From Indolivaga alginatilytica (GTDB lineage Bacteria > Bacteroidota > Bacteroidia > Bacteroidales > Dysgonomonadaceae): DNA of 64,000 bases. Where the stretch lies: contig NZ_QICL01000014.1 in assembly GCF_003201355.1 (NCBI RefSeq), positions 1 to 64,000 of the forward strand, given 5' to 3'. The position numbers were made by a program, and so were the translations under genes. The number at the start of each line of letters is the position of its first letter. Positions within the stretch are counted from its first letter, which is position 1. This document shows positions 2,815 through 62,240 of this stretch, in pieces. The notes under the pieces were generated by a model. The model did no database searches, was not told the origin of the DNA, and saw only the letters and a list, made by a program, of their open reading frames with translations.

Positions 2815-2822
2815 TATATTTG
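2815..2822 (+). promoter_or_regulatory. Probable -7 promoter box before the cobalamin riboswitch
   Basis: TATATTTG is a perfect match to the Bacteroidota -7 consensus TANNTTTG. It lies just ahead of the first conserved riboswitch bases, so transcription would start near 2829. No good -33 TTTG is visible about 20 bp upstream. Confidence 0.5.
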
Positions 2823-2828
2823 TTTCAT

Positions 2829-3060: not shown

Positions 3061-3235
3061 AGATGTTTACAATTAGTAAATATTTAGTCGGTTTTTTTAC
3101 ATATTGTTATTTTATTAATAAGAAGAGAATTATGTTTTTTCTTTTTTATAACTTGTGCCGCTAATTTTAGATAAAACAGGGTGAAGCTAAGGTGTGAGAT
3201 GTTTTATTGATAGAAGATTAATGATATTAGTAGAT

Positions 3236-3318
3236 AAAAGAATTTAATGATATATTTAGGATTATAACAATTGATCGTTGTTATACTTGCCAAAGTATTA
3301 AATAGGTCTTAGACCTTT
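3236..3318 (+). repeat. Dispersed hairpin repeat, copy 1 (full length)
   Basis: A near-complete copy: TTTAATGATATATT, then ATTATAACA and TGTTATACTTGCCAAAG, ending in the palindrome AGGTCTTAGACCT. The palindrome ends about 12 bp before the ATG of the carboxyltransferase gene, so the hairpin would lie in its 5' leader. Confidence 0.85.
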
Positions 3319-3329
3319 ATAGTAATAAA

Positions 3330-10744: not shown

Positions 10745-10857
10745 TCTTTTTCGATTAAGTAAGATATTTAAGTAATTTCGACTATCTGTTGCTACATCTT
10801 AGATTGTAGCAGCCTCGGGTTATTACATCAGCCAAAGCAATAAAAAACTCTGAGAGC

Positions 10858-11751
10858 TTATCGTTTTGAATAATTACAAAGATAACCGAGTTTATACAGA
10901 TCGAGAATAAATAAGCTGGGTTTCTTTCCTAAAAGATTCTTAATGAAGCTGTTTTTTAGTAATCTGAATAAAGCTGAAACGGCTCCTGTTAGTTTGAAAT
11001 AATCAATTCTATTCTTCATTTTTAGTAGTTTGAGAGTATTCTCTAAATCAGCTTTACGTCCTCTTTCTTTTTGTAGTAAGTATAAGTTTCTAAGGGCTGA
11101 CTCTGTTCTTTTTAAAAACTCTTCATTTGAAATAAGGCCTGTATGAATAAGCGGATTATTAACCTGAGTGATATGATGTCCTTGTTTTATTATCTCGGTA
11201 TGAAATACAACGTCCTCATATCCGTATTCTTCTATGTTTTCATCAAAGGGGTGGAGTAATACAACCCGCTTATCTATCATGAAATTGAAAGTCGAAAAAT
11301 ATTCATCCGGATTTACCTTTCGTTTTTCTATCGGGATTGCTTCTCTATGAACCCCGAAAAGCCAACGTAATGAATACTGATTGTCTTTACAAGATAAGTA
11401 TTCGCATCCGCCATAACACACTATGCCCGGAGAGCGCATTTTTATGTAAGTCGATATATAATGTGGCGAGCAGACCTGAGCGTCATTATCAACATAAATA
11501 AGATAAGGATGTGCTGCTTTTTGAGGGAAAAGATTACGGATCTTCGCCCTGCTGATATTAACAGGAAGTTCTTTGTAATGTATATTATCCAGTTTCGATA
11601 ATTCTCTGTTGACAGTTTGAAAAGATAAGTCCGAAGCATCATCAATCAGCAGTATCTCATACGGAGCATCCAAAGCCTCGCATTGCAGATGCAGCTCTGT
11701 TACCAGATTTGTAACATCAGTATTATATATCGGGATACATATTGAGATCAT
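10858..11751 (-). CDS. Family 2 glycosyltransferase
   Basis: A 297-aa GT-A fold glycosyltransferase. It opens with ISICIPIYNTDV, followed by YEILLIDDASD and YLIYVDNDAQV, the last occupying the position of the metal-binding DXD motif. Further on, FNFMIDKRVVLL and DENIEEYGYEDVVF match the acceptor/catalytic region of GT2 enzymes, with the paired acidic residues in EEYGYEDV. There is no membrane segment, so it is probably cytoplasmic or peripheral. Its start overlaps the stop of the rsmD gene by 4 bp. The sugar and acceptor are unknown. Confidence 0.88.
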   Translation of the reverse strand: MISICIPIYNTDVTNLVTELHLQCEALDAPYEILLIDDASDLSFQTVNRELSKLDNIHYKELPVNISRAKIRNLFPQKAAHPYLIYVDNDAQVCSPHYISTYIKMRSPGIVCYGGCEYLSCKDNQYSLRWLFGVHREAIPIEKRKVNPDEYFSTFNFMIDKRVVLLHPFDENIEEYGYEDVVFHTEIIKQGHHITQVNNPLIHTGLISNEEFLKRTESALRNLYLLQKERGRKADLENTLKLLKMKNRIDYFKLTGAVSALFRLLKNSFIKNLLGKKPSLFILDLYKLGYLCNYSKR

Positions 11752-12296: not shown

Positions 12297-13117
12297 ATAG
12301 TTGCTAATATTAATAAATCAAGGGGGGCCCTTCTGCTGTCAGCACCCATAAATTCTACTTCACTTGGTACTCCGACTGTTTCTATACGTTTAATATAATC
12401 GCGAAGAAGCGGAACAACAAATTGATCCGAGCCTGCAAAATTTTCGAGTATATACAGATAATCCTGATTCTGGTCAAAGTTAGATTTATCCCAGATATTC
12501 AGAATGAAATAGATCAGATTGTGTCCATTCTCATGTTGAAAAGTAATTGCATGAAGTAAATTGGATGCCGAGTCATAACACAGTACATCCAGAAATTCGT
12601 TATGGAAATTAAGGTACATTTTCGAACGCTTTTCAGCTATTCTATTTTTACCGTCAATATATTTCATCAACAAGTTAGAATGGTGAAAGAAAGTAGGATT
12701 ATATAAGCTGCGCATCAGAAATTTATAAATCTCTTTATCGGCATTAAAAATTGTAATGTTTTCCTGAATCGGATCGGGACTAATCAGAACTTGTTCTACC
12801 TGTTCCTGATGTGTAAAGTTATATAATGCTTCCTTTTTGTTCTTTTCAAATAAGTAATGCGGGGCAATATCGTATTCCCTCGAAACAAAGACTACATTTG
12901 TTTGCTTGAAAACCTGTGTCAGAAAATTATAATCGAAGATAATACGTTGAATACTGCTAAGCCTGTCCGATTCGTTCGAAAAAGAAGTTTCCCGATAACA
13001 ATAATTACCTCCCATACGTGGCTCGTGTATAGAGAACGCTAAACCATTGGGTGTTATACGAATTGTCAGAATGTATTTTTCTGATTTTCCGAGATCAATA
13101 TTGTCAGGTAAAAACAT
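12293..13117 (-). CDS. DUF3822 family protein
   Basis: A 274-aa soluble protein recognisable as DUF3822, a Bacteroidota family usually encoded immediately upstream of rsmD, as here (4-bp overlap). The family is thought to have an ASKHA/actin-like fold, but nothing catalytic can be read from this sequence. Landmarks are LTIRITPNGLAFSI near the start, FNADKEIYKFLMRSLYNP and a C-terminal DSRRAPLDLLILATI. Function is unknown. A full dispersed repeat begins 10 bp upstream of its start codon. Confidence 0.87.
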   Translation of the reverse strand: MFLPDNIDLGKSEKYILTIRITPNGLAFSIHEPRMGGNYCYRETSFSNESDRLSSIQRIIFDYNFLTQVFKQTNVVFVSREYDIAPHYLFEKNKKEALYNFTHQEQVEQVLISPDPIQENITIFNADKEIYKFLMRSLYNPTFFHHSNLLMKYIDGKNRIAEKRSKMYLNFHNEFLDVLCYDSASNLLHAITFQHENGHNLIYFILNIWDKSNFDQNQDYLYILENFAGSDQFVVPLLRDYIKRIETVGVPSEVEFMGADSRRAPLDLLILATI

Positions 13118-13126
13118 AAGTAAATC

Positions 13127-13209
13127 AAAGTATTTAATGATATATTTTCGAGTTATAACAGGCTATAGCTGTTAAATTTGCCAAAGCAATAAATAGGTCT
13201 GAGACCTTA
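13127..13209 (+). repeat. Dispersed hairpin repeat, copy 2 (full length)
   Basis: A full copy: AAAGTATTTAATGATATATT, then TTATAACAGGCTATAGCTGT, TTTGCCAAAGCAATAAAT and the terminal palindrome AGGTCTGAGACCTTA. The middle hairpin (AACAG...CTGTT) is intact. It lies between divergent genes; here the end without the palindrome is next to the DUF3822 start. Confidence 0.9.
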
Positions 13210-13427
13210 ATATCTTATTTAATGTTTACAAATTTAGAAAAAGAAACTTTATGTACTATTTTTATACCCTGTTTAAATTTCTGGAAATGATCGTAAAGAA
13301 TCATGAGAGAGAAACGTAGGGTAGTATAATTATACTCCCAATCGAAACAATGGGTGAAACTTTCTCACTCCCACGTATGCTGTCTGCTAATTTTAAATAG
13401 GCTCTTATTTCTAAATAACCTCATACA
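13210..13427. other. Intergenic region upstream of the RecD-like helicase
   Basis: No gene seen. It contains the 14-bp palindrome AGTATAATTATACT (near 13323) and flanking short inverted segments (GAGAAA/TTTCTC and ACGT). It may hold a promoter or operator for the helicase gene, but no good TTTG/TANNTTTG pair is visible. Confidence 0.3.
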
Positions 13428-15022: not shown

Positions 15023-15571
15023 ATGGAAGAGTTGCAGCTAATAGAGGGATGCAAGAAACATGATCGTAGGTCACAGCAAATCGTTTACCAACGGTATGCC
15101 CGTGTGATGTATGGTATATGTCTGCGGTATTCGTCGGATGCGGATTCTGCACAGGATTTATTACATGACGGGTTCATAAAAGTTTTCGCACATATTCCTT
15201 CGTATGAAGGGAAAGGCTCCTTTGAAGGGTGGATGAAAAGGGTTTTTATAAATCTGGCATTGGAGACCATTCGTAAGGATAAGATTAAAAAACAATACTC
15301 GGAAGATATTGAAAATCTGTCTGATATTGATGAAATAAGGGATGATTCGGAAGATGACACGGCAAAGATTTCGGAAACGGAATTAATGAAAATGATACAG
15401 GAGTTACCTCAAGGTTATAGATCGGTTTTCAACTTATATGCAATAGAAGAGTATTCTCATAAAGAAATAAGTGAAGCTCTGGGGATAGCCGAAGGAACAT
15501 CCCGTTCCCAATACATCAGAGCCAGATTGTTATTACAAGAAAAGGTTAAAGCATACTTAAAAAGACAATGA
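15023..15571 (+). CDS. ECF-type RNA polymerase sigma factor
   Basis: A 182-aa sigma-70 family factor of the extracytoplasmic-function type. Region 2 is represented by YQRYARVMYGICLRY and DLLHDGFIKVF, with KGSFEGWMKRVFINLA (region 2.4). Region 4 is LPQGYRSVFNLYAIEEYSH then KEISEALGIAEGTSRSQYIR (helix-turn-helix). The frame is open from a TTG at 15005, but the ATG at 15023 is the natural start. Its stop overlaps the start of the next gene (ATGA), whose product looks like its membrane-bound regulator, so the pair is probably a signalling unit responding to an envelope condition. Confidence 0.93.
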   Translation: MEELQLIEGCKKHDRRSQQIVYQRYARVMYGICLRYSSDADSAQDLLHDGFIKVFAHIPSYEGKGSFEGWMKRVFINLALETIRKDKIKKQYSEDIENLSDIDEIRDDSEDDTAKISETELMKMIQELPQGYRSVFNLYAIEEYSHKEISEALGIAEGTSRSQYIRARLLLQEKVKAYLKRQ

Positions 15572-16893
15572 AACCGGATAAAGATCACATAAAGGATATT
15601 TTTTCCTCAAAGCTGAAAGGCTTTGAGCCGGATCTTCCTCCGTCGTTATGGGAGAAGATCGAGGCAGATCTGCCCGTGGCTCCGGTGGTGAGAAAATCAC
15701 CTGCCAGAATATTTCGTCATACCATTTTTACTTGGACGGCAGTAGCAGCCGCTGTGGTTTTGCTCGCATTACTTTTTGTGCCGCAGGAGCATGATTCAGG
15801 CAGCATTGCCGGATTACCGGATACTAATACGACAAAAACGAATGCCCCTGTAGAGCAACCAAAAGTTGCGAATTCCGACAAGTCAGGTGTATCTGATAAT
15901 GTTGTAGAATCTGCTCAAAAGCACTCCTCGTATAGTCTGTTAGCTGAATCGAAAACGACGAAAACTGAAGTCGCTTCCGTAAAAGAAACCTTCCCTGAGA
16001 AAACGATGCCAGAAAAAGAAACAGTTACCATTGCTCCTGTAAATAAAAGCTCGGAGGTAGTAGATAATAATACATATGTTGCAGAAGAAAAGAGCACTGA
16101 AAACTTTGAACCTAAAGATGCTGATTTCGATCGGGACTTAAAAGCCCGCATAGCTGCTTTTGAGGCAGAAGGTGAGAAAACTAGAAATATACTGGCAGAC
16201 AATAATATTCCTGTAAAAACTAAAAAAAGTGAGTCTGAGCCAAAGGGGATAGCCTTAGGCATTGGAGGAGGTAGCGGACTTTCCAGATCAGATGAAATGA
16301 CAAATTCTCTTCGTTATGCCAATGCTTCTTCTGATGGACCTCTATCTCTCAGTATGCAGAAAAAAGAAAAATTGAAGATGGAGCATAACCAACCTATTTC
16401 TTTTGGAATAGCGGTCAATAAAAAAATTACAAATAGAATTTCAATAGAGAGTGGAATTGTCTATACCTATATTTCGGCGAGAATAAAAGAAGACCCTAAT
16501 ATGGAGTTTAAGCAAAACGATTTGCAATATTTCCATTATTTGGGTATTCCTCTATCTGTAAATTATAAATTAGGAGAATGGAAGAAGGTAGAATTCTATG
16601 CTTCAGCGGGAGGGATGATTCAAAAAGATATTTACGGCAGATTGAACAGCGATAGCAGTATCGATGGTTTGATCAATTTCGAAAAGTCTTCTAAACGTAA
16701 AATTTCTCAGGAAAGACCTCAGTTTTCGGTAATGGGTCTGTTAGGTATAAGTTATCCTTTATACAATAAACTGGCTGCTTATACGAGTTTCGGAGGAGCA
16801 TATTATTTTGATGCAGGAAACCAGTATCAAACTATATTTTCAGATAAGAAATGGCTCTTTAATCTCAATTTGGGGTTGAAATTTGGCTTTTAA
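15568..16893 (+). CDS. Putative anti-sigma-like membrane protein with a C-terminal outer-membrane-barrel-like domain
   Basis: A 441-aa protein translationally coupled to the ECF sigma gene. Residues 1-48 are cytoplasmic-like and include LPPSLWEKIEADLP, a segment typical of Bacteroidota proteins encoded next to ECF sigma factors. One membrane helix follows (about 50-70), then a long Lys/Glu/Thr/Val-rich low-complexity stretch (75-210). From about 215 the sequence becomes alternating beta strands (GIALGIGGGSGLS, FGIAVNKKITNRISIESGIV, FEKSSKRKI and so on) ending in LNLGLKFGF, with the terminal Phe common to barrel proteins. An inner-membrane helix joined to a barrel-like domain is topologically puzzling. 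The stop codon is part of dispersed repeat copy 4. Confidence 0.75.
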   Translation: MKPDKDHIKDIFSSKLKGFEPDLPPSLWEKIEADLPVAPVVRKSPARIFRHTIFTWTAVAAAVVLLALLFVPQEHDSGSIAGLPDTNTTKTNAPVEQPKVANSDKSGVSDNVVESAQKHSSYSLLAESKTTKTEVASVKETFPEKTMPEKETVTIAPVNKSSEVVDNNTYVAEEKSTENFEPKDADFDRDLKARIAAFEAEGEKTRNILADNNIPVKTKKSESEPKGIALGIGGGSGLSRSDEMTNSLRYANASSDGPLSLSMQKKEKLKMEHNQPISFGIAVNKKITNRISIESGIVYTYISARIKEDPNMEFKQNDLQYFHYLGIPLSVNYKLGEWKKVEFYASAGGMIQKDIYGRLNSDSSIDGLINFEKSSKRKISQERPQFSVMGLLGISYPLYNKLAAYTSFGGAYYFDAGNQYQTIFSDKKWLFNLNLGLKFGF

Positions 16894-16982
16894 GGTCTCA
16901 GGCCTTTTTATAGCTTTAGTAAGTGTAATAATCAGATATATATGTAATTGTAATATGTGGCAATAAATATTTAGTGCTACTT
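16891..16982 (-). repeat. Dispersed hairpin repeat, copy 4 (full length, variant)
   Basis: Reverse orientation. It begins with TAAGGTCTCAGGCCTTTTTA, whose TAA is the stop codon of the preceding gene, then TAGCTTTAGTAAGTGTAATA and an end reading GCAATAAATATTTAGTG. That end resembles copy 18 (groES-groEL) more than the other copies, which suggests a subfamily. Confidence 0.8.
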
Positions 16983-17020
16983 AATATCTAACTAAATAGA
17001 AACAATAGAAATAATTAATT

Positions 17021-20122: not shown

Positions 20123-20136
20123 TTTTAAGAAAAAGC

Positions 20137-20217
20137 AAGTATTTAATGTCGTATTTGAAAGTTACAACTGTCAGTTGATATTATACTTGCCAAAGTAATA
20201 AAAAGGTCTTAAACCTA
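20137..20217 (+). repeat. Dispersed hairpin repeat, copy 5 (full length)
   Basis: AAGTATTTAATGTCGTATTT, then TTACAACTGTCAGTTGATAT, TATACTTGCCAAAGTAATAA and the palindrome AAGGTCTTAAACCTA. The palindrome ends about 30 bp before the ATG of tsf. Confidence 0.87.
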
Positions 20218-20247
20218 GAATATTAATAATCAAAAAAATATAAAGAT

Positions 20248-24104: not shown

Positions 24105-24222
24105 ATTTAGTGAAATAGAGAGGAAAAACGAGAATAGCGGGTTGTATTAACTGTTGTAAAGTATTGACTGATATTTTTATGGAGGTAATTGGTTGTAATT
24201 GATGTGATTACTTGGGAGAGGA

Positions 24223-24239
24223 AAAGGCCTGAGACCTTA
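24223..24239 (-). repeat. Dispersed repeat, copy 6 (palindrome only)
   Basis: AAAGGCCTGAGACCTTA; its last three bases are, on the minus strand, the TAA stop of the DUF2752 gene. Only the terminal palindrome of the repeat is present. Confidence 0.75.
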
Positions 24240-24650
24240 TATTCCTCTCTGAATATTGATATACCAACTAAATAGGGTTAAAATGAGAAACAGGAGATAG
24301 ACTTTCCATGTTATCAGGCTGTTAATCTTGGATATGAAGACTTCTTTGCCTCTTATTGTATCAGTTAATAAACAGATAAGGCTGATGACGATAAAGATTG
24401 TCAAGGGCATCCCCAATATGTGATAATGGAATGATTGAATGAAGTTTCCGTTAAAAAGGGCTAAGGTTGCGCGACCTAGTCCACATCCGGGACATGGTAT
24501 TCCTGTAAGATTCTTGAAAACGCAAATAGTGCTATTATGCTCGTGATTTTGATAAAGATCCATGAGCAAAAGGGAAGCATAAGCTAGTGCGATTACCAGA
24601 GTATATTTAAAGCTCTGTGGTAGTTGTTTTATGGGCGATGTTATTCGCAT
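24237..24650 (-). CDS. DUF2752 membrane protein
   Basis: A 137-aa protein with the DUF2752 signature CPGCGLGRATLALFNGNF and FHYHILGMPL between hydrophobic segments; three or four membrane helices. The CxxC pair in PCPGCG is characteristic of the family, whose function is unknown. The start overlaps the TM2 gene upstream by 44 bp; a later Met (24563) would avoid the overlap but would drop the first membrane segment. Stop codon lies in dispersed repeat copy 6. Confidence 0.85.
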   Translation of the reverse strand: MRITSPIKQLPQSFKYTLVIALAYASLLLMDLYQNHEHNSTICVFKNLTGIPCPGCGLGRATLALFNGNFIQSFHYHILGMPLTIFIVISLICLLTDTIRGKEVFISKINSLITWKVYLLFLILTLFSWYINIQRGI

Positions 24651-25598: not shown

Positions 25599-28214
25599 AT
25601 GGAAATTGCAAGTAAGTACAATCCTGCGGAAGTAGAGGATAAATGGTATGAGTATTGGATGAAAAATAATCTTTTTCATTCTGAACCAGACAGTCGCGAG
25701 CCGTTTACTGTCGTCATTCCTCCTCCTAATGTCACAGGTGTTCTGCATATGGGACACATGTTGAACAATTCTATACAGGATATACTAGTCCGTCGTGCAC
25801 GCATGATGGGTAAAAATGCTTGCTGGGTTCCGGGAACAGACCATGCTTCTATTGCTACTGAGGCTAAAGTGGTAGGCAGATTAGCTTCGCAGGGAATTAA
25901 TAAAAGAGACCTTACTCGTGATGAGTTTTTGAAACATGCTTGGGAATGGACTGACGAACATGGTGGAATAATCCTCGAACAATTACGTAAACTTGGAGCT
26001 TCGTGCGATTGGGATCGGACTTGTTTTACACTGGATGAGAAACGTTCGGAAAGCGTATTCAAAGTATTTGCAGACCTTTATCGCAAAGGTTTAGTATATC
26101 GCGGAGTTCGCATGGTCAATTGGGATCCTGCTGCAAAAACTGCTCTGTCGGACGAAGAGGTTATACATAAAGAAGAAAACAGTAAATTATATTACTTAAA
26201 ATATGAGGTTGAAGGCGAAGATGGTTTTGCTGTTGTTGCAACTACACGTCCTGAAACTATTTTTGGAGACGTTGCTGTTTGTATCAATCCGAATGATGAG
26301 AAAACAGCGCATCTGAAAGGTAAGAAGGTTATAGTTCCAATTGTAAACCGTGTTGTTCCTATCATCGAGGATGATTATGTAGATATGGAGTTTGGAACGG
26401 GATTTCTGAAAGTTACTCCTGCCCATGATGTAAATGACTATATGTTGGGTGAGAAACATAATTTGGAAGCTCTCGATATTTTCAATGACGATGGTTCACT
26501 CAACGCACATGGACTTCAATACGAAGGTCTGGACAGATTTGATGTCCGCAAGAAGATCGAAAAAGATTTGGAAGAAGCAGGACTTTTGGAAAAAGCGGAA
26601 GCTTATACCAATAAAGTAGGTTTCTCGGAGCGTACCAATGTACCCATCGAACCAAAGCTATCCATGCAGTGGTTTTTAAAGATGGAAGATTTGGCAAAAC
26701 CGGCTCTTGATGCTGTTGAAGACGATACAATAAAATTCTATCCGGCACGCTATAAAAATACATACCGTTATTGGATGGAGAACATCAAAGATTGGTGTAT
26801 AAGCCGTCAACTTTGGTGGGGACATCGTATCCCTGCATACTATTTGCCCGAAGGTGGCTATGTAGTAGCAGAGACTCCCGAACTGGCTTTGATTGAAGCT
26901 CAAAAAAAGAATCCAAGCTTAACGATGGAAGATCTTCGCCAAGATGAAGACTGTCTGGATACTTGGTTCTCTTCATGGTTATGGCCTATATCGGTATTTG
27001 ATGGCATAAATCATCCTGATAATAAGGATATAGAGTATTATTATCCTACGAGCGATTTGGTAACAGGTCCGGATATTATCTTCTTTTGGGTAGCCCGTAT
27101 GATAATGTCGGGTTATGAATATCGCAAGAAACCATGTTTTCAGAATGTATACTTTACAGGAATTGTTCGCGACAAGCAAGGTCGTAAGATGTCTAAACAA
27201 TTAGGAAACTCTCCTGACCCTATTGAGCTGATGGCTAAGTATGGAGCAGATGGGGTACGTATGGGCTTACTGCTTACGGCTCCTGCAGGAAATGATATTC
27301 CTTTTGATGAAGCTCTTTGCGAACAAGGACGTAACTTTAATAGTAAAATATGGAATGCTTTCCGCCTTGTAAAAGGGTGGGAGGTTGATAACTCAATAGA
27401 GCAACCCGAAGCAGCAACTATTGCCGTGAAATGGTTTGATGATGTATTGTCGAAAACAATTGCAGAAGTAGATGAGCTGTTTGCTAAATACCGTTTGTCG
27501 GAAGCTCTAATGCTTGTTTATAAATTGTTCTGGGACGAGTTCTCATCGTGGTATTTGGAAGTAATTAAACCTGCTTACCAAAAACCGATCGATGCGAAAA
27601 CCTATCAGCAGACACTTGGTTTCTTCGATTCGCTATTAAGAATATTGCATCCATTTATGCCTTTCATCACAGAGGAATTATGGCAAGCTCTTTCAGAAAG
27701 AAAAGATGGAGAAAGCATAATGATTGCGTCTATGCCTGCTGCTAAAATAGTAGATAGCGATCTTCTGAATTCATTTGAGAAGGTTAAAGAAATTGTTTCG
27801 GGTATCCGTACCATCAGATTACAGAAAAATATAGCTAATAAAGATCCGTTGGAATTAGAGATTATGGGAGATCATGATGACTCACTTAATTCTGTTATTT
27901 CTAAAATGGGTAATATCTCAGAGATCAGGAAGACATCGGATAAAAATCCATTGGCAATATCTTTCCTTGTAGGAACCACAGAATTTGCTGTACCTATGGG
28001 TAACAATATTGATGTGGAAGCCGAGATTGCAAAACTTGAAGCTGATCTTGTTTATCAACAAGGTTTCTTGAATTCGGTTATGAAGAAACTGAGTAACGAA
28101 AAGTTTGTAGCTAATGCAAAAGCTGATGTCGTAGATGCAGAACGTAAAAAACAAGCGGATGCTGAAAGTAAGATCAAAACCATTGAAGAAACGATTCAAA
28201 GCTTAAAGAAATAA
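25599..28214 (+). CDS. valS: Valine--tRNA ligase
   Basis: An 871-aa class I aminoacyl-tRNA synthetase. The HIGH-type motif is HMGH (50-53) in [20 protein letters not shown], and the KMSKS-type motif is KMSKQ (530-534). CP1 editing-domain signatures include [13 protein letters not shown] and [16 protein letters not shown]. The C-terminal 70 residues form the expected coiled coil ([13 protein letters not shown]). Length is typical for Bacteroidota. The stop codon is the first triplet of dispersed repeat copy 7. Confidence 0.97.
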
Positions 28215-28227
28215 GGTTACGACCTTA
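28212..28227 (+). repeat. Dispersed repeat, copy 7 (palindrome only)
   Basis: TAAGGTTACGACCTTA: a 6-bp stem with a 4-nt loop. Its TAA is the valS stop codon. Confidence 0.7.
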
Positions 28228-30340: not shown

Positions 30341-30357
30341 AAAGGTCTATGACCTTA
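30341..30357 (-). repeat. Dispersed repeat, copy 8 (palindrome only, coding enters it)
   Basis: AAAGGTCTATGACCTTA. The minus-strand gene ending here reads into the palindrome: its last three residues (Leu-Arg-Ser) and its TAG stop are spelled by the repeat bases. Upstream sequence is too diverged to call a full copy. Confidence 0.7.
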
Positions 30358-31030
30358 GTTTTTTATAAATAGCTTCTGCTATAAAGAAATCTTCTTCCCA
30401 ATCGATGTCGAAAGAATCTATATCATTATTCTCAAATAAGAATGGTTTCTTTCCGATTCTGTCTTCAAGATTTCTGTATATATCTATATCTGCCAGAAAT
30501 ATCCCGCTATTGATTTCGTAAAGCGGCTCAATAGTTTGGGTTCTTGGCCATTTCTCTTTGTTGCGGTTATAATTTACAGCACCTTCTTTATTCCAGATGA
30601 AAGTTCGCAAGGCAGTGACTGACATTAGAGAATCATGATCGCCCTTACTTAGAGCATTTTTATAGGCATCGATTGCTTCTTCATATATTTTACCATCAAT
30701 GAAGGGTGATGTTACATGAGTCCACAAGACAGCTCCTTCTGTGATGATAGTAGGTACATATTTTACCAGATCATCAGTAGATGTGCTTGATGTTGCCAGA
30801 TGCTCAGGTCGTCTGTCTATTCTTATTTTATCGCTTGATACTGTTTCGGCTAGTTGAATTACCTCTTCATCATTAGTAGACAAAACAATAGAGTCAATAG
30901 CATTACAAGCTACCAGTTGTTGTAATTTTATCTTTAATAGTCCACCCTCAATACCTGCAAAAGTGCGAGTGTTCTTATGAGGAACTCTTTCGCTGCCTGC
31001 CCTACATGGAAGAAAAACTGATATTTTCAT
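30347..31030 (-). CDS. CMP-sugar synthetase-like cytidylyltransferase (NeuA family)
   Basis: A 227-aa protein of the acylneuraminate cytidylyltransferase family, which couples a 2-keto sugar acid to CMP. The N-terminal CTP loop reads RAGSERVPHKN (10-20), matching the family's RxGSKRxPxKN motif. IVLSTNDEEVIQLAE and SSTSTDDLVKYV follow. The C-terminus has FLFENNDIDSFDIDWEEDF, like the metal-binding and substrate-recognition end of NeuA enzymes. The substrate need not be sialic acid: no neuB or neuC is here; instead the next gene upstream is a pyruvate-aldolase-like fusion. The last codons lie in a dispersed repeat. Confidence 0.87.
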   Translation of the reverse strand: MKISVFLPCRAGSERVPHKNTRTFAGIEGGLLKIKLQQLVACNAIDSIVLSTNDEEVIQLAETVSSDKIRIDRRPEHLATSSTSTDDLVKYVPTIITEGAVLWTHVTSPFIDGKIYEEAIDAYKNALSKGDHDSLMSVTALRTFIWNKEGAVNYNRNKEKWPRTQTIEPLYEINSGIFLADIDIYRNLEDRIGKKPFLFENNDIDSFDIDWEEDFFIAEAIYKKLRS

Positions 31031-31077
31031 TTAATAAAACATTATTTAGTTATAACTAACTGTCGTATTTATATTTA

Positions 31078-31107
31078 TGAAAGCAATAACACGGTCTGAA
31101 ACCTTTA
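31078..31107 (-). repeat. Dispersed repeat, copy 9 (partial)
   Basis: GAAAGCAATAACACGGTCTG followed by AAACCTTTA keeps the CAATAA segment and the palindrome with mismatches. On the minus strand its end supplies the TAA stop of the aldolase-fusion gene. Confidence 0.65.
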
Positions 31108-32664
31108 ATCTATTAATAATCGGTATACCGATAAATTTTTCACTCCTTGATATTTTGTAGCAGTTATGGTTGCTACCTCTATATCGGGTCTTTTATCTAC
31201 AATCTGTGAAAGCAGATATTCGTTTTCGGAAGTGAGTAGTCTTTCATTTTCATTTATCAAGCCATCATAGCCGTCATATCCTGCAATATATACAGTTGTT
31301 GCAGATAATTCTATTGCTGTTTGCAATGCCAATGCTGTATGCGAATCTTGATAAAGTGGAGAGAATGTTACTTCTTTAAGCTCGAAGCTCTTGTCTATTA
31401 GCTGTTGAGGAATATAAGTTCCCATTTTTCGAGGGTAAGAAGGTAGAACACACGAAATTTTATTCAGATCGAAGTCTGCAAATACTTTCTCTAAACGGTG
31501 TCCTTCGTTTCCTACTAAGCAGAAAAACTGAGGAATATCTATGTCATTATAATAACCTGCATTTTTGCTGCTTGCATGAATGATGCAGATGCTTTTGTCT
31601 TCTTGTTTCTTTATAAACTGTTTTATTGCGGTCGCACAATTGGCTCCACTTGGACCTCCTCCTATAATAAGCACAGTGTCGAAATGTGATTTGTCAGAAT
31701 TGAAGATAGGAAGTTTTAGGTTGTCTCCTTTTTTATCCTTCATATTATGCAATGCCTGCAAGATACTATTGATAGAGTAAAAGCGACGAGTAACCCAATC
31801 CATCACATCCTTTTGTGGTAGTGAATTGAAACCCGAAACCATATAAGGAAGGTTGGTTCCCCAACCATATTCTTCTTTTAAACGTTCAAAATCGGCAACA
31901 GTAGTACTTAGGCTGTTGAAATCTAACGATACACCTTCTTTTGAGGAGAAGTAAGATAGTAGCAGTTCGGTTTTCATATTACCTGCACCTCGTCCCATTC
32001 CCGTAATAGTAGTATCAATAAGTTCGCATCCAGCTTTTATGGCTGCCAGTGTATTGGCAAATGCCAATTCGGTATTGTTATGACCATGAAAACCAATTTT
32101 ACATTGCAGTACCGATCTTAGGTGTCGGGTTATGGTTTCTACTTCTTCCGGGAATATACTTCCATAAGAATCAACCATAGAGAAGCTATCAACTTTACCA
32201 TTTAATGAGGCTACATCTGTCATGAAATCAGGATACTCAGTCATCCATTTGGATACGTACATTACGTTGAATCCCATTTCGAATCCCATTTCTTTGATGC
32301 GAGCAGCAGTTTCTCCTGCACGTTTTATATTGGCAGGGTCAACAGCCATTCTTACAATGTCTATTGTTCCTTTGCAAGAAGATAAGAGCTTTTCAAGATC
32401 ATCTATCTTAACTTCTTTCTCATTCAACATAATGCCTATTTTCTTCGAAGGCATATGCTGACGAGCGTATTTCAATATATAATCGGGGCAGTAATTATAC
32501 TCCCCTTTATATCCATCCTGAACTAAAGATCTGTACCCGATTTCAATATACGAAACAGGCAGTTTCTCCATTGCCTGAAAATAATTAAGAGTCAGGTTTT
32601 CATTAAAATCCCAATTGGTGTAATATCCTCCATCCCTAAGGGTACAGTCTACTATATCTATCAT
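31105..32664 (-). CDS. DRE-TIM aldolase domain fused to a Rossmann-like domain
   Basis: A 519-aa two-domain protein. Residues 1-300 form an HMGL-like/4-hydroxy-2-oxovalerate-aldolase-like domain: DCTLRDGG (6-13) with the conserved Arg10 and Asp11, FHGHNN (192-197) with metal ligands His193 and His195, and GMGRGAGN (222-229). Such enzymes make or break C-C bonds using pyruvate or acyl-CoA. From about 330 a second domain begins with VLIIGGGPSGANCATAI (331-347) and ends in short beta/alpha units (TVYIAGYDGYDG); it resembles MptE/DUF115-like sugar-pathway domains or a dinucleotide-binding fold, and I cannot name it. It sits between a CMP-sugar synthetase-like gene and a GT-B-like gene (4-bp overlap), so a role in making a keto-acid sugar is plausible. 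Confidence 0.78.
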   Translation of the reverse strand: MIDIVDCTLRDGGYYTNWDFNENLTLNYFQAMEKLPVSYIEIGYRSLVQDGYKGEYNYCPDYILKYARQHMPSKKIGIMLNEKEVKIDDLEKLLSSCKGTIDIVRMAVDPANIKRAGETAARIKEMGFEMGFNVMYVSKWMTEYPDFMTDVASLNGKVDSFSMVDSYGSIFPEEVETITRHLRSVLQCKIGFHGHNNTELAFANTLAAIKAGCELIDTTITGMGRGAGNMKTELLLSYFSSKEGVSLDFNSLSTTVADFERLKEEYGWGTNLPYMVSGFNSLPQKDVMDWVTRRFYSINSILQALHNMKDKKGDNLKLPIFNSDKSHFDTVLIIGGGPSGANCATAIKQFIKKQEDKSICIIHASSKNAGYYNDIDIPQFFCLVGNEGHRLEKVFADFDLNKISCVLPSYPRKMGTYIPQQLIDKSFELKEVTFSPLYQDSHTALALQTAIELSATTVYIAGYDGYDGLINENERLLTSENEYLLSQIVDKRPDIEVATITATKYQGVKNLSVYRLLID

Positions 32665-33911: not shown

Positions 33912-33982
33912 GTAAGTTTATAATAACAATGAGTGGCGAGACTTTGTTTCTTTATTCGTTTTTAGGTAACTCTTTTTTATTT

Positions 33983-34065
33983 TAAGGTCTCAGACCTGTT
34001 TAATGTTTCGGTAAGTGTAATATCTATAGTTTGTTACAACTTGAAAATACATCATTAAATACTTT
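33983..34065 (-). repeat. Dispersed hairpin repeat, copy 10 (full length)
   Basis: Reverse orientation: TAAGGTCTCAGACCTGTTTA, then TTTCGGTAAGTGTAATATCT, GTTACAACTTGAAAATACAT and CATTAAATACTTT. Together with copy 11 it forms an inverted pair around 330 bp with no convincing gene. Confidence 0.87.
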
Positions 34066-34238
34066 CATTTACTAAAGAATACATGTAAAGTACAAAGTTA
34101 ATCAAATCACATTATATAAGATACATATCTGTAAAAAATAAGAATCAGCAGAAAAGTTATTTTATCTGTTTATGTAACCAGTTATCAGTGAACGCACGAA
34201 CAATTAATAAGGAAAAATAAAACTCGTGAAAAATGTCT

Positions 34239-34322: not shown

Positions 34323-34400
34323 GTTATTTTGACTGAGTAACTGAAAGTCTTTAATTTTACAAGCCTCTGCTCCGTTTACTTGTCAACTACTTTTATTAAA

Positions 34401-34425
34401 ACAATAAAAAGGTCTGAGACCTTTA
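34401..34425 (+). repeat. Dispersed repeat, copy 11 (right-hand end)
   Basis: ACAATAAAAAGGTCTGAGAC followed by CTTTA, a perfect palindrome AAAGGTCTGAGACCTTT. It ends 20 bp before the ATG of the methyltransferase-like gene. Confidence 0.8.
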
Positions 34426-34444
34426 AATAAAACACCGGAAAACT

Positions 34445-36606: not shown

Positions 36607-36787
36607 CATAATTATGGAAATTGTAATGTTCAAGTTTTACAAAAGTAGCAAAACGGATATAATATCAGGCTTGCTTAACTAAAGTTAAATGCTTATTGTC
36701 TTTACATTGTTCATTTATCAGAGAAATAAAAGTTTGTCAGCCTTTAAAAAGCTATAAATAATATGGGTCAATTAAGTTAAGTAAAAG

Positions 36788-36870
36788 AAAGTATTTAATG
36801 ATATACTTTGGGTTTATAACAGGCTTTGGTTGTTTTGCTTACCAAAGTAATAAATAGTTCTGCGAACTTA
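36788..36870 (+). repeat. Dispersed hairpin repeat, copy 12 (full length, paired changes)
   Basis: AAAGTATTTAATGATATACT, then TTTATAACAGGCTTTGGTTG, TTACCAAAGTAATAAAT and the terminal hairpin AGTTCTGCGAACT. Compared with the usual AGGTC-N3-GACCT, both arms changed together (GGTC to GTTC, GACC to GAAC), so pairing is kept. Confidence 0.88.
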
Positions 36871-36905
36871 AGATTTAGATTATCTTTTGTTTACTGCCCA
36901 AAAGC

Positions 36906-41962: not shown

Positions 41963-42036
41963 TCTAATGTATTTTATGTTATAATATTATAAGGTTTATA
42001 ACGTCAAAGTTAAGTTTTTATTTGTTTAGGCAAAAG

Positions 42037-42119
42037 AAAGTATCGAATGATATATTTAGAAATATAGCAGGCTATAGATATTCTGTTTGCCAAAGCTATA
42101 AAAAGAATAAGAGATCTTA
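42037..42119 (+). repeat. Dispersed hairpin repeat, copy 13 (full length, diverged end)
   Basis: AAAGTATCGAATGATATATT, then AATATAGCAGGCTATAGATA, TGTTTGCCAAAGCTATAAAA and AGAATAAGAGATCTTA. The terminal palindrome is diverged, but its last three bases still supply the TAA stop of the leftward tex gene. Confidence 0.85.
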
Positions 42120-44240
42120 ATCGAGTCCTTTCATCGATAAAGCTACTCGTTTTCTATCAGCGTCAACCGATAATACTTTCACTTGAACGTACTGATGTAG
42201 GGATACAATCTCGGTAGGGTCAGATACAAACCTGTCTGCTAATTCTGAAATGTGTACCAAGCCATTTTCTTTAATGCCTACATCAACAAAACATCCGAAA
42301 TTGGTAACGTTAGTAACTATACCAGGTAGAACCATGCCTTCTCTTAAATCTGCAATGGTCTTGATTGTAGGATCAAATTCAAAAGCCTGAATTCCTTTTC
42401 GTGGGTCACGTCCCGGTTTATCTAATTCTTCAATAATATCGTTGAGAGTAGGTAAACCTACTTTATCATTCACGTATTTATTTAGATTTAGATTCTTTTT
42501 CAGTTCCTTGTTTTCGATCAACTCTTTTACGTTGCAACCTAAATCTTTAGCCATAGTTTCTACTACGACATAACTTTCTGGGTGTACAGCCGAATTATCA
42601 AGAGGGTTCTCTCCATCGGCAATTCGTAAGAATCCAGCACATTGTTCAAAAGCTTTCTCACCCATTCGAGGAACCTTAAGCAATTGTTTGCGGGTTTTGA
42701 ATGCTCCGTTTTCGGCTCTGTAATTTACAATGTTTTGGGCTAGGGTAGGACCTAATCCCGATATATAAGTGAGTAAATGTTTACTTGCAGTATTTACATT
42801 TACACCAACCATGTTTACGCAACTTTCGACCGTTAAGTCAAGCGATCGTTTCAACTTCGTTTGATCTACATCGTGTTGATATTGACCTACACCTATTGAT
42901 TTAGGGTCTATCTTGACCAACTCTGCTAAAGGATCCATCAAACGGCGACCAATAGATATGGCTCCACGAACTGTTACATCGTATTCCGGAAATTCTTCCC
43001 TTGCAATTTTAGATGCAGAATAAATAGATGCACCGTTCTCGCTAACTACGAATACTTGTACTTCCTTCTCGTAGCGAATCTTTGTAATGAAATGTTCTGT
43101 CTCACGGCTGGCAGTTCCGTTACCTATGGCAATAGCATCAATTTTGTAAGTCGATACCATTTGCGAAATCTTTCCTGCTGCTTTAGACGATTCGTTTTGA
43201 GGTGGATGTGGATATATTGTTTCATTATGCAAGAGGTTGCCCTGTGCATCAAGACAAACTACCTTACAACCTGTTCTATATCCGGGGTCTATACCAAGTA
43301 CTCTTTTTTGTCCGAGGGGAGCAGCTAAAAGCAGTTGACGTAAGTTTTCAACAAATACACGTATGGCTTCTTCGTCTGCAACATCTTTCGACATGGTAGC
43401 GAATTCTGTTTCTATGGATGGCTTAAGTAATCGTTTATAAGCATCTTTGACAGCAACTTCTACATATTCGGATGCTTCTGTAACTCCTTTTACGAATTTA
43501 CGGTTGAGGCGTTCCAAAGCGTCTTCTTCTAGAGGTGCAATATTTATTCTGAGGAATCCTTCTGCTTCACCACGTCGCATAGCAAGTATGCGGTGAGATG
43601 AACAGCGGCTCAATCGTTCTTCCAGATCAAAATAGTCTCTGTATTTGTCGCCTTCTGTTTCTTTGCCTTTAACTACTTTAGATGTCACGAAGGCATCGCG
43701 TTGAAAAAGATTACGTATTGTATTACGCGCAGCTTCGTCTTCGCTTACCCATTCAGCAATAATATCGCAAGCACCATTTATCGCTTCTTTTGTATCTTGC
43801 ACATCTCCTTTTACAAAAGCGAGAGCTTTAGATTCTACATCAAATTTCTGTTGCAACATCAAAGCTTGAGCCAATCCTTCCAGCCCTTTTTTACGAGCTA
43901 TTTCTGCACGTGTTTGGCGTTTAGGTTTGTAGGGTAGATAAATATCTTCTAGCTCGGTTGAATTCCAGCAATTTTCTATTCTCGATTTCAGTTCGGGAGT
44001 TAGTTTCTCCTGCTCTTCTATCGTTTTTAAAATGGTTTCTTTTCGCTTTGTAAGGTCTATCAGTTTATCGTATTGCTCTTTAATATCGGCAATCTGAATT
44101 TCGTCTAATCCTCCAGTTACTTCTTTCCGGTAACGACTGATAAATGGGATGGTAGCTCCATCGTTAAGTAAGGCTATTGTCTTTTCTATTTGGCTCTCTC
44201 TAATATTCAGAGCCGATGATATTAGCTTATTAATGGTCAT
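42117..44240 (-). CDS. tex: Tex family RNA-binding transcription accessory protein
   Basis: A 707-aa Tex protein. Order of domains: N-terminal helical region with TIPFISRYRKEVTGGLDE (about 29-47), a YqgF-like RNase H fold starting RVLGIDPGYRTG (313-324), helix-hairpin-helix motifs around YISGLGPTLAQNIVNYRAEN and KVPRMGEKAFEQCAGFLRI, and a C-terminal S1 domain (about 635-705: GIVTNVTNFGCFVDVGI, GLVHISEL). The family binds RNA and affects transcription and stress survival. Length is slightly shorter than E. coli YhgF, as usual for this phylum. Confidence 0.94.
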   Translation of the reverse strand: MTINKLISSALNIRESQIEKTIALLNDGATIPFISRYRKEVTGGLDEIQIADIKEQYDKLIDLTKRKETILKTIEEQEKLTPELKSRIENCWNSTELEDIYLPYKPKRQTRAEIARKKGLEGLAQALMLQQKFDVESKALAFVKGDVQDTKEAINGACDIIAEWVSEDEAARNTIRNLFQRDAFVTSKVVKGKETEGDKYRDYFDLEERLSRCSSHRILAMRRGEAEGFLRINIAPLEEDALERLNRKFVKGVTEASEYVEVAVKDAYKRLLKPSIETEFATMSKDVADEEAIRVFVENLRQLLLAAPLGQKRVLGIDPGYRTGCKVVCLDAQGNLLHNETIYPHPPQNESSKAAGKISQMVSTYKIDAIAIGNGTASRETEHFITKIRYEKEVQVFVVSENGASIYSASKIAREEFPEYDVTVRGAISIGRRLMDPLAELVKIDPKSIGVGQYQHDVDQTKLKRSLDLTVESCVNMVGVNVNTASKHLLTYISGLGPTLAQNIVNYRAENGAFKTRKQLLKVPRMGEKAFEQCAGFLRIADGENPLDNSAVHPESYVVVETMAKDLGCNVKELIENKELKKNLNLNKYVNDKVGLPTLNDIIEELDKPGRDPRKGIQAFEFDPTIKTIADLREGMVLPGIVTNVTNFGCFVDVGIKENGLVHISELADRFVSDPTEIVSLHQYVQVKVLSVDADRKRVALSMKGLD

Positions 44241-44487: not shown

Positions 44488-44988
44488 ATGGCAAAGATAG
44501 GTATATACTATGGTTCTACAACCGGTAACACTCAAGATTTAGCAGAGCGTTTAGCAAAAGCTTTAGACGTAGCATCAGCAGATGTGCATGATGTAGCATC
44601 AGCTTCGGCAGACTTTAGAGCTTATGATGTGGTTCTGTTCGGAGGATCAACAATGGGTATGGGTGATTTTCAAGATGATTGGGAATCTTATATCGACGAT
44701 GTCAAGAATGCAGACCTTAATGGTAAAAAAGTAGCTTTATTCGGCTGTGGAGACTCTTCTTCTTATAGCGACACTTTTGGTGATGCTCTAGGTAAAATTT
44801 ATGAAGTGATAAAAAATAAAGGATGCGAAGTAATAGGTCGCGTATCTATCGAAGGTTATACTTTTGATAGCTCTGAGGCTATTGTTGACGGACAGTTTGT
44901 TGGATTACTTATCGATGAGGATAATGAATCTAATCTTACCGATCAGCGTGTTGCTTTATGGTTAGAAGATTTAAGAAAAGTAATTTGA
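44488..44988 (+). CDS. fldA: Flavodoxin
   Basis: A 166-aa long-chain flavodoxin, an FMN electron carrier. The phosphate loop is GIYYGSTTGNTQDLAERLA (4-22), the first FMN-stacking loop is GGSTMGMGDFQDDW, and CGDSSSYSDTFGDALG is the second, with Tyr at the stacking position. Bacteroidota encode a DUF2023 gene just downstream, as here. The stop codon TGA is part of a dispersed repeat. Confidence 0.96.
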   Translation: MAKIGIYYGSTTGNTQDLAERLAKALDVASADVHDVASASADFRAYDVVLFGGSTMGMGDFQDDWESYIDDVKNADLNGKKVALFGCGDSSSYSDTFGDALGKIYEVIKNKGCEVIGRVSIEGYTFDSSEAIVDGQFVGLLIDEDNESNLTDQRVALWLEDLRKVI

Positions 44989-45024
44989 GGTCGTTGACCT
45001 TAAGTCTTTGAAAGTGTAATTTTA
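44986..45024 (-). repeat. Dispersed repeat, copy 14 (left half)
   Basis: TGAGGTCGTTGACCTTAAGT then CTTTGAAAGTGTAATTTTA. The TGA is the flavodoxin stop. The arms pair with one G-T pair around a GTT-type loop. It faces away from copy 15. Confidence 0.75.
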
Positions 45025-45031
45025 ATGGCAT

Positions 45032-45093
45032 GTTTCTAAACCTGCTATAGTTGTTATACTTGCCAAAGCAATAGAAAGGTCTGAGACCTCAAT
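45032..45093 (+). repeat. Dispersed repeat, copy 15 (right two thirds)
   Basis: TAAACCTGCTATAGTTGTTA, then TACTTGCCAAAGCAATAGAA and the palindrome AGGTCTGAGACCT, ending about 30 bp before the ATG of the DUF2023 gene. Copies 14 and 15 lie head to head, with palindromes at the outer ends. Confidence 0.85.
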
Positions 45094-45122
45094 ATATGTT
45101 CCTTACCTCATAATTCTCAATT

Positions 45123-46868: not shown

Positions 46869-46937
46869 ATGTGATAGTGTATTATATATTATTGGTATTT
46901 CTAGATTTATTTAGAATAGACTTCGAACTAATTACTT

Positions 46938-46967
46938 AGCTTAGCAATAGAAAAGTCTAGAATCTTA
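46938..46967 (-). repeat. Dispersed repeat, copy 16 (partial, diverged)
   Basis: AGCTTAGCAATAGAAAAGTC followed by TAGAATCTTA. The GCAATAGAAA segment matches copy 15; the palindrome is partly lost (centre TCTAGA). Its end supplies the TAA stop of the TagF-like gene. Confidence 0.6.
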
Positions 46968-48017
46968 TTTTCGCTTGATTTTGCCAAACTTTTTAATAGA
47001 TTGGTATTTTCTCCAAAGATTGAGCTTTCGTTCTTTAGGAACACCATGTTGAGTAATATAATCTTCAACAGCAGCAAACATTCGTTCAGCTACTTTTCCG
47101 TCCAGATAAGGATCGTAGTTGTTTATAATCCATTGGCGTTTCTCTTTATACTCATCGCTGGTTTGTACAGTTTCAAAAGCTTCGCTTAGGAGATCAATAT
47201 TATCCAGATCGAGCCAGTATTTATCCTTAGCCACATTCTTATATGTAATCACCGGCTTATCTAACAGTAGAAATTCGTATACTGCTGATGAGGTATCACT
47301 AATCATAATATCGGAAGCCAAAATGTATTTGGTGATATTATGGTCGTCTATCCAGATGATGTTTTCAACTTCGTTAGCTAATTGCTTATATTCTTCAACC
47401 CATTCTTGTTTTGTTAGAGGATGGAACTTGAGAAGTATAACAACATCTTTTTCTTTAGCTAATGTTTTGAGGCTTTCTTTTATAAAAGGAAGTGAGGTAA
47501 GCGATGGCGAAAAAGTAGGTGCATATAAAACGACCTTGCTTTTTTTATTGTCAGCTAATAACTGTTGTTTATAATCGTCAAAAGTATGTAGGTTGTTGAA
47601 AATCCAGTCCTGACGAGTCCAGCCGGTTTCGACTACTTCAAAATCTTTATATTTAGCAGCTAATTTCTTAAAGGGTTCGGTGAAAAAAGGTCCTTGTGTG
47701 AGGTACATATCCAAGTAGCGGCGAATAACCCAATGATCTTTTTTCTCGGCAGCATACCCATGAAATATTTCGGCTTTTACTCCCGATAAATAGTATGGTA
47801 CGATATTTCCGGGAACGAAAACTGCTTCGGGGAAAAATTCGTAAGTTTCTTGTATCGAATTTGTCCATCTAACCTCATCTTTAAGAGAGAAGTCAGGGAT
47901 GTTTCGAGCATCCACAAACCAAAGAACTTCGTGTTGCTGGCTTTTGTTTGCCTCATCCTGCAAGGGAGCAAGAATACTTACTGCGTATTTATGCTCACAA
48001 AAAAGAACGATTTTCAT
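46965..48017 (-). CDS. CDP-alcohol phosphotransferase, TagF/glycerophosphotransferase-like
   Basis: A 350-aa protein from the Met at 48017 (MKIVLFCEHKYAVSIL); the frame is open 23 codons further, but that part overlaps the upstream gene and is not conserved-looking. It matches the TagF-type CDP-glycerol:glycerophosphate transferase fold: EIFHGYAAEKKDHW (His-containing loop), VVLYAPTFSPS, VILLKFHPL and ISDTSSAVYEFLLLDKPVIT (the Ser-Ser-x-x-x-Glu donor site). Such enzymes transfer a phospho-alcohol from a CDP carrier to an acceptor. Together with the two upstream genes it may decorate a surface glycan. Confidence 0.87.
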   Translation of the reverse strand: MKIVLFCEHKYAVSILAPLQDEANKSQQHEVLWFVDARNIPDFSLKDEVRWTNSIQETYEFFPEAVFVPGNIVPYYLSGVKAEIFHGYAAEKKDHWVIRRYLDMYLTQGPFFTEPFKKLAAKYKDFEVVETGWTRQDWIFNNLHTFDDYKQQLLADNKKSKVVLYAPTFSPSLTSLPFIKESLKTLAKEKDVVILLKFHPLTKQEWVEEYKQLANEVENIIWIDDHNITKYILASDIMISDTSSAVYEFLLLDKPVITYKNVAKDKYWLDLDNIDLLSEAFETVQTSDEYKEKRQWIINNYDPYLDGKVAERMFAAVEDYITQHGVPKERKLNLWRKYQSIKKFGKIKRK

Positions 48018-54463: not shown

Positions 54464-54494
54464 AAATATTCAGTAATTTAAAATTAGTATAGGC

Positions 54495-55607: not shown

Positions 55608-55865
55608 GTTAATTGTTTTTATATTTAATATTATGAAATTTTATTTTTGATGGAAATATACCTTAAATAAGTAAAATAGTTAAAGTTGATAAGTAAACAA
55701 ATTAAGTAACAAAGGTGACCTCTAAACGGCTAAAAAGTGTCACTTCTGTTGTTTCTGTAAATGTCTGTAATCCAGCTGTGAATAATCTAAAAGGTTACAA
55801 AGGTAACAAAAGTAACACTTTTTCACGAGCTTTATTTTCTCCTATTCATTCTTGTTAAGTAAATG
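55608..55865. other. Region between redoxin genes with GTAAC-type motifs
   Basis: No gene seen. It contains AAAGGTGAC, AAAAGTGTCACTT and GGTAACAAAAGTAACAC-type motifs between 55708 and 55820, then CACGAG. A similar motif lies near 1785. It is followed by dispersed repeat copy 17. It probably carries the promoter of the two downstream redoxin genes. Confidence 0.35.
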
Positions 55866-55948
55866 AAAGTATTTAATGATATACTTCCGGATTATAACAG
55901 GCTATTGCTGTTATGCTTACTAAAGCAATAAAAAGGTTTAAGACCTTA
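55866..55948 (+). repeat. Dispersed hairpin repeat, copy 17 (full length)
   Basis: AAAGTATTTAATGATATACT, then ATTATAACAGGCTATTGCTG, TTATGCTTACTAAAGCAATA and the palindrome AAGGTTTAAGACCTTA. The first hairpin (AAGTAT...ATACTT) is perfect here. It is about 95 bp beyond the stop of the third redoxin gene. Confidence 0.9.
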
Positions 55949-56043
55949 CTTTACATCTATTTATAGATAAATAGCTCAATTGAATTTCACTGTCGATTCG
56001 CATTCATTATTGTTACGTTCCTACCTAAAAAGCTCTGCACTCC

Positions 56044-60034: not shown

Positions 60035-60304
60035 ATGAGTATTAAACCTTTAGCAGATAGAGTGCTTGTTAAGCCAGCTGCGGCAGAAGAAAAAACTGTA
60101 GGAGGAATCATTATTCCTGATACCGCAAAAGAAAAACCATTGAAAGGCGAAGTTGTTGCCGTAGGTAACGGAACAAAAGACGAAGAAATGGTATTGAAAG
60201 CCGGGGATCAGGTACTTTATGGTAAATATGCCGGTACTGAAATAGAATTGGAAGGCGAAAACTTTCTGATTATGCGTCAGTCTGATGTACTTGCTATAAT
60301 TTAA
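60035..60304 (+). CDS. groES: Co-chaperonin GroES
   Basis: An 89-aa Gro[22 protein letters not shown] then [13 protein letters not shown] (mobile loop that contacts GroEL), [20 protein letters not shown] and [13 protein letters not shown]. It caps the GroEL chamber for protein folding. The TAA stop codon is the first triplet of a full dispersed repeat that fills the spacer to groEL. Confidence 0.97.
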
Positions 60305-60391
60305 GGTCGCAGACCTTTTTATAGCTTTGGTTAGCATAAAAACCAGAGGTAGTTATATTTAAAATATAGCAATAAATATTTAACGGTATTT
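60302..60391 (-). repeat. Dispersed hairpin repeat, copy 18 (full length, inside groESL)
   Basis: TAAGGTCGCAGACCTTTTTA (TAA is the groES stop), TAGCTTTGGTTAGCATAAAA, then AGTTATATTTAAAATATAGC and AATAAATATTTAACGGTATT. It lies within the groES-groEL transcript and shares the AATAAATATTTA end with copy 4. Confidence 0.85.
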
Positions 60392-60403
60392 TTAAAGAAT
60401 TAA

Positions 60404-62200: not shown

Positions 62201-62226
62201 TTGAAATAAACAGGTCTGTGACCTCT
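62201..62226 (+). repeat. Dispersed repeat, copy 19 (palindrome end)
   Basis: TTGAAATAAACAGGTCTGTG then ACCTCT; the palindrome is AGGTCTGTGACCT. It ends about 15 bp before the ATG of the dehydrogenase-like gene. Confidence 0.7.
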
Positions 62227-62240
62227 AAAATAATCTTTCT

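Follow-up and report, generated by a model that had tools for sequence, protein, structure and literature searches.

Hairpin end of a short mobile repeat in a Bacteroidales genus is found in excess at native stop codons

The stretch of DNA analysed, in the following called the window, comprises the first 64,000 nucleotides of a contig of Indolivaga alginatilytica (G000:C14:1-64000) with a G+C content of 36%, in a genome of 5.12 Mb. Copies of a short repeat, one end of which is a palindrome, are scattered between its genes (Table 1). A preliminary description of the window had placed the stop codons of nine genes inside this palindrome, and all nine are indeed located there. As it had also noted, the palindrome begins at the TAA in several of them, with an exact or close match to TAAGGTC at 16893, 24237, 28214, and 60304. 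The stops at 28214 and 44988 lie in the contexts TAAGGTTACGACC and TGAGGTCGTTGACC, the TAA at 31105 is followed by AGGTTTCAGACC, and the stops at 42117 and 46965 are contained in the degenerate palindromes TAAGATCTC and TAAGATTCTAGAC. A tenth case, which had been overlooked, is the minus strand gene 10858-11751 with the stop context TAAGCTCTCAGAGTT. Full or near-full copies occupy the stops at 16893, 60304, 42117, 31105, and 10858, and hairpin-only or truncated copies those at 24237, 28214, 30347, 44988, and 46965. In groES the C-terminus LAII is kept ahead of the repeat. Gene calling relied on a simple hexamer procedure which was checked in the window against open reading frames and Pfam, and which overlooked at least one real gene (the DUF2752 gene 24237-24650); the right ends of the copies were located by motif. 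A search of the 64-kb window with Rfam at gathering score yielded a cobalamin riboswitch only, the repeat remaining unmatched; riboswitch and a repeat copy both precede the gene 3330-4871. Within neighbouring genes at 53550-56421 the window also has three diverged direct repeats of 170 nt, spaced by about 1.2-1.5 kb.

Table 1. Copies of the repeat located in the window, in order of position
Feature	Position	Strand	Surroundings
Full-length copy	3222..3320	-	between cobalamin riboswitch (2817-3024) and gene 3330-4871
Full-length copy TAAGCTCTCAGAG	10763..10862	-	hairpin in stop of gene 10858-11751
Full-length copy	13117..13210	-	93% identity to consensus query
Full-length copy	16890..16985	+	hairpin within TAA of gene 15568-16893
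Full-length copy	20126..20220	-	
Hairpin-only copy	24222..24240	-	stop of DUF2752 gene 24237-24650
Hairpin-only copy	28212..28227	+	stop of valyl-tRNA synthetase 25599-28214
Hairpin-only copy	30341..30357	-	gene 30347-31030 ends at internal TAG, after Leu-Arg-Ser
Copy	31030..31107	-	hairpin directly after TAA of gene 31105-32664
Full-length copy	33980..34087	+	
Diverged copy	34332..34427	-	
Full-length copy	36777..36871	-	
Copy, degenerate hairpin	42019..42119	-	at stop of tex (42117-44240)
Hairpin	44986..45001	+	TGA of flavodoxin-like gene 44488-44988; abuts right end of copy 44998-45094
Full-length copy	44998..45094	-	
Degenerate truncated copy	46935..46967	-	stop of gene 46965-48017
Full-length copy	55855..55948	-	
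Full-length copy	60300..60398	+	between groES 60035-60304 (stop in hairpin) and 544-aa ORF 60410-62044 (groEL position)
Hairpin-only copy	62203..62227	-	14 bp before gene 62241-63149

The repeat is about 90 bp long, reads AGGTCTCAGACCTTTTTATTGCTTTGG...TTTACT and is flanked by TA on both sides; written 5' to 3' the ends of the element are AGGTCTCAGACCTTTTTATTGC...TTTACT, and an iterated profile gave the consensus TTAAGGTCTCAGACCTTTTTATTGCTTTGGTAAGTATAACAACCATAGATAGTTATAATTATAAAATATAGCATTAAATATTTTCTATTACTTAA. Its ends are fixed, as the 94-nt consensus query aligned from 1 to 94 in the best dispersed copies. One end forms a perfect hairpin with a stem of 5-6 bp, the other end does not. The hairpin, predicted at -5.5 kcal/mol in RNA and followed by UUUUUAUU, is a weak one (z -1.38 in RNA folding). 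About a quarter of the genome of the window was covered, together with 1.0 Mb of a first relative (G001) and 0.6 Mb of a second (G004). In 1.24 Mb of the genome of the window the iterated profile recovered 232 copies, about 190 per Mb, which extrapolates to roughly 950 in the whole genome, and some 170 well-scoring hairpin-only or truncated copies were counted in the 2.8 Mb examined. Of five further genomes in the genus four have the repeat in abundance, and the remaining one is 62% complete; elsewhere in the family the repeat is rare. At least two further repeat families with other middles, GTGTAGGGGTGAACC... and CAATTGGATTAGTCGTTTATC..., share the same hairpin end (G000:C1:521245 and 199681; G000:C1:164445 and 540808; G004:C1:527860). 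A literature search brought up no publication describing this repeat.

How the copies arrived became visible by comparison with the two relatives, to which the median protein identity is 91% (G001) and 80% (G004). In 42 pairs of a filled and an empty site the insertion had occurred precisely at a TA, which is single in the empty site and stands on both sides of the element in the filled one. The net insertion was mostly 90-94 bp, and deletion of AGGTC...TTTACT plus one TA restored the sequence of the relative; these pairs fit a duplication of TA as well as a TTA target with an element that itself ends in TTA. In one locus (C12:132627) a copy is nested in an older one, which G001 retains uninterrupted with the empty site GACTGTTA|TAA. 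The local target preference is a T before the TA and A/T after it. Insertions at stop codons have this same general signature, with T at position -1 in a fraction of 0.40 compared to 0.23 at other stops and A/T at +3 and +4, and are thus ordinary transposition events. For hairpin-only copies the relatives offered too few clean empty sites.

The repeat is a mobile, short, non-coding, MITE-like, non-autonomous element with hundreds of copies across a Bacteroidales genus. It shares with MITEs the short non-coding sequence, the many dispersed copies with fixed ends and the precise insertion. The inverted match between the consensus ends is limited to TAAG...CTTA, 4-5 bp including the TA, which falls short of terminal inverted repeats, and five genomes of the genus lack the IS630-type transposase (PF13358) that would mark a Tc1/mariner-IS630 derived MITE, which is compatible with its loss or with a different enzyme. 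For these two reasons the repeat was not filed as a standard MITE. The IS200/IS605 type (HUH), defined by hairpin ends, a linked Y1 transposase, and no duplication, was considered as well, and a hairpin end is present. A Y1 transposase (Y1_Tnp) occurs as a single gene in three genomes and is absent from two repeat-rich ones (G004 and G005), and repeats are present in all well-assembled genomes of the genus. In the genome of the window the single, RAYT-like Y1 gene (G000:C1:535.9-536.5 kb) is flanked by palindromes of its own of the GGGATTTGCAATCCC type, and no copy of the repeat lies beside it. Membership in the REP/REPIN class was rejected, the palindromes around this gene being of the GGATTTGCAATCC type and not the hairpin of the repeat, and neither IS630 nor Y1 transposases showed a link to the repeat that would qualify them as mobilisers. 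An autonomous parent was sought in 2.4 Mb as a pair of matching ends separated by 0.3-5 kb, and none was convincing. An open reading frame of 214 amino acids without Pfam match (G000:C1:540876-541520, minus strand) lies between left and right ends of the repeat 950 bp apart; that this locus is a larger element is possible but unproven.

Closest in kind are the TA-inserting bacterial MITEs and the BOX elements of pneumococcus. ERIC, Correia/NEMIS, and RUP are likewise non-coding elements of about 100-150 bp, have TA ends with TA duplication, lie mostly between genes and fold as RNA, but they carry terminal inverted repeats whereas the ends of the present repeat have only TAAG/CTTA in common (PMC2229807). 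BOX elements of Streptococcus pneumoniae are also small interspersed repeats for which native stops inside the repeat have been reported, with 36 copies supplying the stop codon of a gene and ortholog alignments giving no strong evidence of truncation; they differ in being modular (A/B/C) and linked to the insertion sequence ISSpn2, the likeness being one of kind, and the passages on BOX report the overlap with stops but neither a test of orientation nor a depletion immediately past the stop (PMC3049150). SPRITE, a terminator-like repeat of the same species, resembles the repeat in having a hairpin followed by a T-rich tract near the 3' ends of genes, but its stem has 18 bp as compared to 5-6 bp and it is enriched between convergent genes, whereas the excess of the repeat is confined to 0-8 bp from the stop (PMC3049150). 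REP/REPIN sequences with their RAYT (Y1) transposases have a hairpin end, intergenic location, and high copy number in common with the repeat, which is longer and has TA on both sides (PMC2817692).

Where the copies lie relative to genes was then a matter of counting. In 48 of 240 copies from 1.24 Mb the stop codon occupies a single exact register, tTAAggtc, the neighbouring registers being nearly empty; G001 and G004 have their spike at this register as well. Random placement was modelled for 261 full copies from the three genomes by rebuilding the gap as it was before insertion and allowing any TA in either orientation, and in a weighted form the TA sites were weighted by the learned target preference in 20,000 simulations. 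The hairpin was at a stop in 48 copies compared to 16.0 expected without weights and 15.7 with weights, a count reached in none of the 20,000 simulations; for the other end the observed number was 10, against 16.0 and 20.0. The preliminary description had suspected an excess at stop codons beyond the general effect of short intergenic regions, and this was borne out, as it is threefold overall and about ninefold in gaps from 150 bp upwards (11 observed, 1.26 expected). Its observation that the palindrome end is the one proximal to the gene holds at the stop codon itself; elsewhere orientation is near random (hairpin toward the start codon in 133, other end in 169). Beyond the stop the hairpin end was found 17 times at 1-8 bp (9.5 expected), 14 times at 9-50 bp (33.2), 21 times at 51-100 bp (21.7), and 28 times farther away (27.7). 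The other end gave 7 (9.8), 29 (33.4), 23 (21.0), and 23 (27.9) for the same bins, and the difference between the two ends in the partition between 0-8 and 9-50 bp is significant (Fisher p=5e-7). Hairpins 1-8 bp before a start codon are depleted (4, 14.5 expected). The bins were set post hoc after the first test and applied unchanged to G001 and G004 as a replicate, which yielded 17 at the stop (5.5 expected) and 5 at 9-50 bp (13.9), with 31 (10.2) and 9 (19.3) in the genome of the window alone. In statistical terms the survival of a copy depends on the position of its hairpin, copies being enriched at the stop and up to 8 bp after it and depleted 9-50 bp after it.

If insertion into coding sequence or downstream of it had created the stops by truncating or extending the protein, as the preliminary description had considered, ortholog pairs with and without the hairpin should differ at their ends. 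In 61 of 71 such pairs both proteins stop at the same residue, and in 68 their ends differ by no more than two residues, compared to 77% and 92% of control pairs; the stop is therefore native, and creation by the element is ruled out for most cases and is the least credible of the explanations. A few genes do fit it: the one at C1:309888 lost 3 residues and the one at 30347 gained 3 codons from the hairpin, its reading running into the repeat up to the TAG just as first described. Copies of opposite orientation do fall within the last about 25 bp of genes (for example G000:C1:63335, 159573, and 168506), and there the right end gives a stop in all three frames within about 11 bp. In many independent loci the empty ortholog junction lies one base before the gene end, nearly all elements being oriented with the gene, and as both ends read inward start with A, an element entering the TA of a TAA or TAG stop restores a TAA and leaves the protein unchanged. 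A fusion by deletion, in which the element inserted downstream and the spacer between TAA and TAAGGTC was lost later, would account for the excess at 0 together with the depletion at 9-50 bp; it is very improbable, since in five clean stop pairs (C12:33255, C1:59211, C12:72483, C12:101001, and C12:126084) no spacer is missing and the post-stop sequence resumes right after the element. Just as little can be said for a passive origin, with the TA of the stop codon being one of the few harmless TA sites in a compact genome. It explains about 16 of the 48 cases, and gaps below 30 bp contribute many; as the sole explanation, however, short gaps are ruled out by the excess in long gaps and by the weighted null, and a bias in orientation cannot come from the availability of sites.

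Targeting at the time of insertion, in which the transposition machinery prefers stops, or a state of the coding strand there, in one orientation and selection is minor, is unlikely on balance but still has to be taken seriously as a rival, since older copies do not show a clearly stronger bias. When copies were split in thirds by divergence, 13, 15, and 20 of 87 were at stops from the youngest to the oldest third, a trend which is not significant, and the 13 in the least diverged third already exceed the 5.5 expected. Full and hairpin-only copies also have a similar share at stops (60 of 283 and 42 of 174), and hairpins at stops are not better conserved, with a stem pairing of 0.908 versus 0.925 elsewhere and a stem divergence which is no better in a comparison of shared copies that includes loose alignments. 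Against targeting stands that the signature of insertions at stops is the general one and would even favour the opposite orientation (20.0 expected for the other end, 15.7 for the hairpin), and that orientation is near random away from stops. To our knowledge, no machinery acting at the DNA level recognises stop codons, and this too counts against it. The stronger claim that the insertion machinery and not later selection distinguishes stops, or the exact state of DNA or RNA there, together with the orientation, so that a transposon would target sites of translation termination, must be considered quite improbable; if targeting were true, the way in which the target is chosen would be of a new kind. 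Positive selection for the fusion of a hairpin to the end of a gene, for instance as terminator or as stabiliser of the 3' end, is more doubtful than targeting in general. It agrees with the orientation-specific excess at the stop and with the resemblance of hairpin and U-run to an intrinsic terminator: the -5.5 kcal/mol hairpin is followed by TTTTTATT and some copies were flagged by a terminator scan. Orientation and position of the copies are mostly unlike those of terminators, two thirds of the hairpin-only copies do not follow a stop that faces them, and at 9-50 bp past stops, where hairpins should be equally good terminators, they are depleted. Nor are hairpin-only remnants much richer at stops than full copies. 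That hairpins at stops are not better conserved argues against long-term selection for the fused form, and in its simple version this second proposal of the preliminary description was not supported, so that its interpretation as a whole is partly supported.

The explanation we prefer, to which we give something close to an even chance, is a filter on placement, the hairpin with its U-run being tolerated under a terminating ribosome and harmful when exposed just beyond. In RNA, hairpin and U-run would form a weak structure which resembles an intrinsic terminator or is prone to cleavage. When the hairpin overlaps the stop, the terminating ribosome may cover its 5' arm and block folding behind RNA polymerase, which would make such an insertion nearly neutral; a hairpin 9-50 nt past the stop would be exposed, cost the gene or operon, and be purged. 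A precedent is the E. coli terminator tR2, which is almost fully repressed near a stop codon as ribosomes block the hairpin, and reaches its maximum beyond about 30 bp (PMC4824070). The placement profile of the repeat parallels this distance relation, repression at a few bp and full effect beyond about 30 bp, and the filter is favoured for this reason, although tR2 was studied in an E. coli reporter experiment which concerned neither a genome pattern nor this repeat. Polarity on a downstream gene is insufficient as the cost, because convergent gene gaps show the same tendency (hairpin at 0-8 bp 12 observed, 5.5 expected; at 9-50 bp 1 and 6.8) and so do tandem gaps of at least 100 bp, in both of which an early end of transcription should do no harm to a downstream gene. 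The cost would have to come from an effect on the upstream mRNA, which is possible by analogy with ERIC, for which an orientation-dependent effect on upstream mRNA is described in two reports (PMC3049150, PMC10969869). The counts at the stop itself would be equally expected from an insertion preference, and the weakness of the hairpin, its undiminished strength in copies 1-100 bp past stops as compared to those at stops, and the lack of a clear rise with age count against the filter.

For annotation the finding means that stops within these repeats are genuine native stops. The repeat reveals which positions around stop and start codons are open to an RNA hairpin, and at a density of about 190 copies per Mb in several related genomes it amounts to a natural position-scanning experiment at single-base resolution. 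If shielding by the ribosome is true, the pattern would show, across the genome, the footprint that a terminating ribosome leaves on nascent RNA in Bacteroidales.
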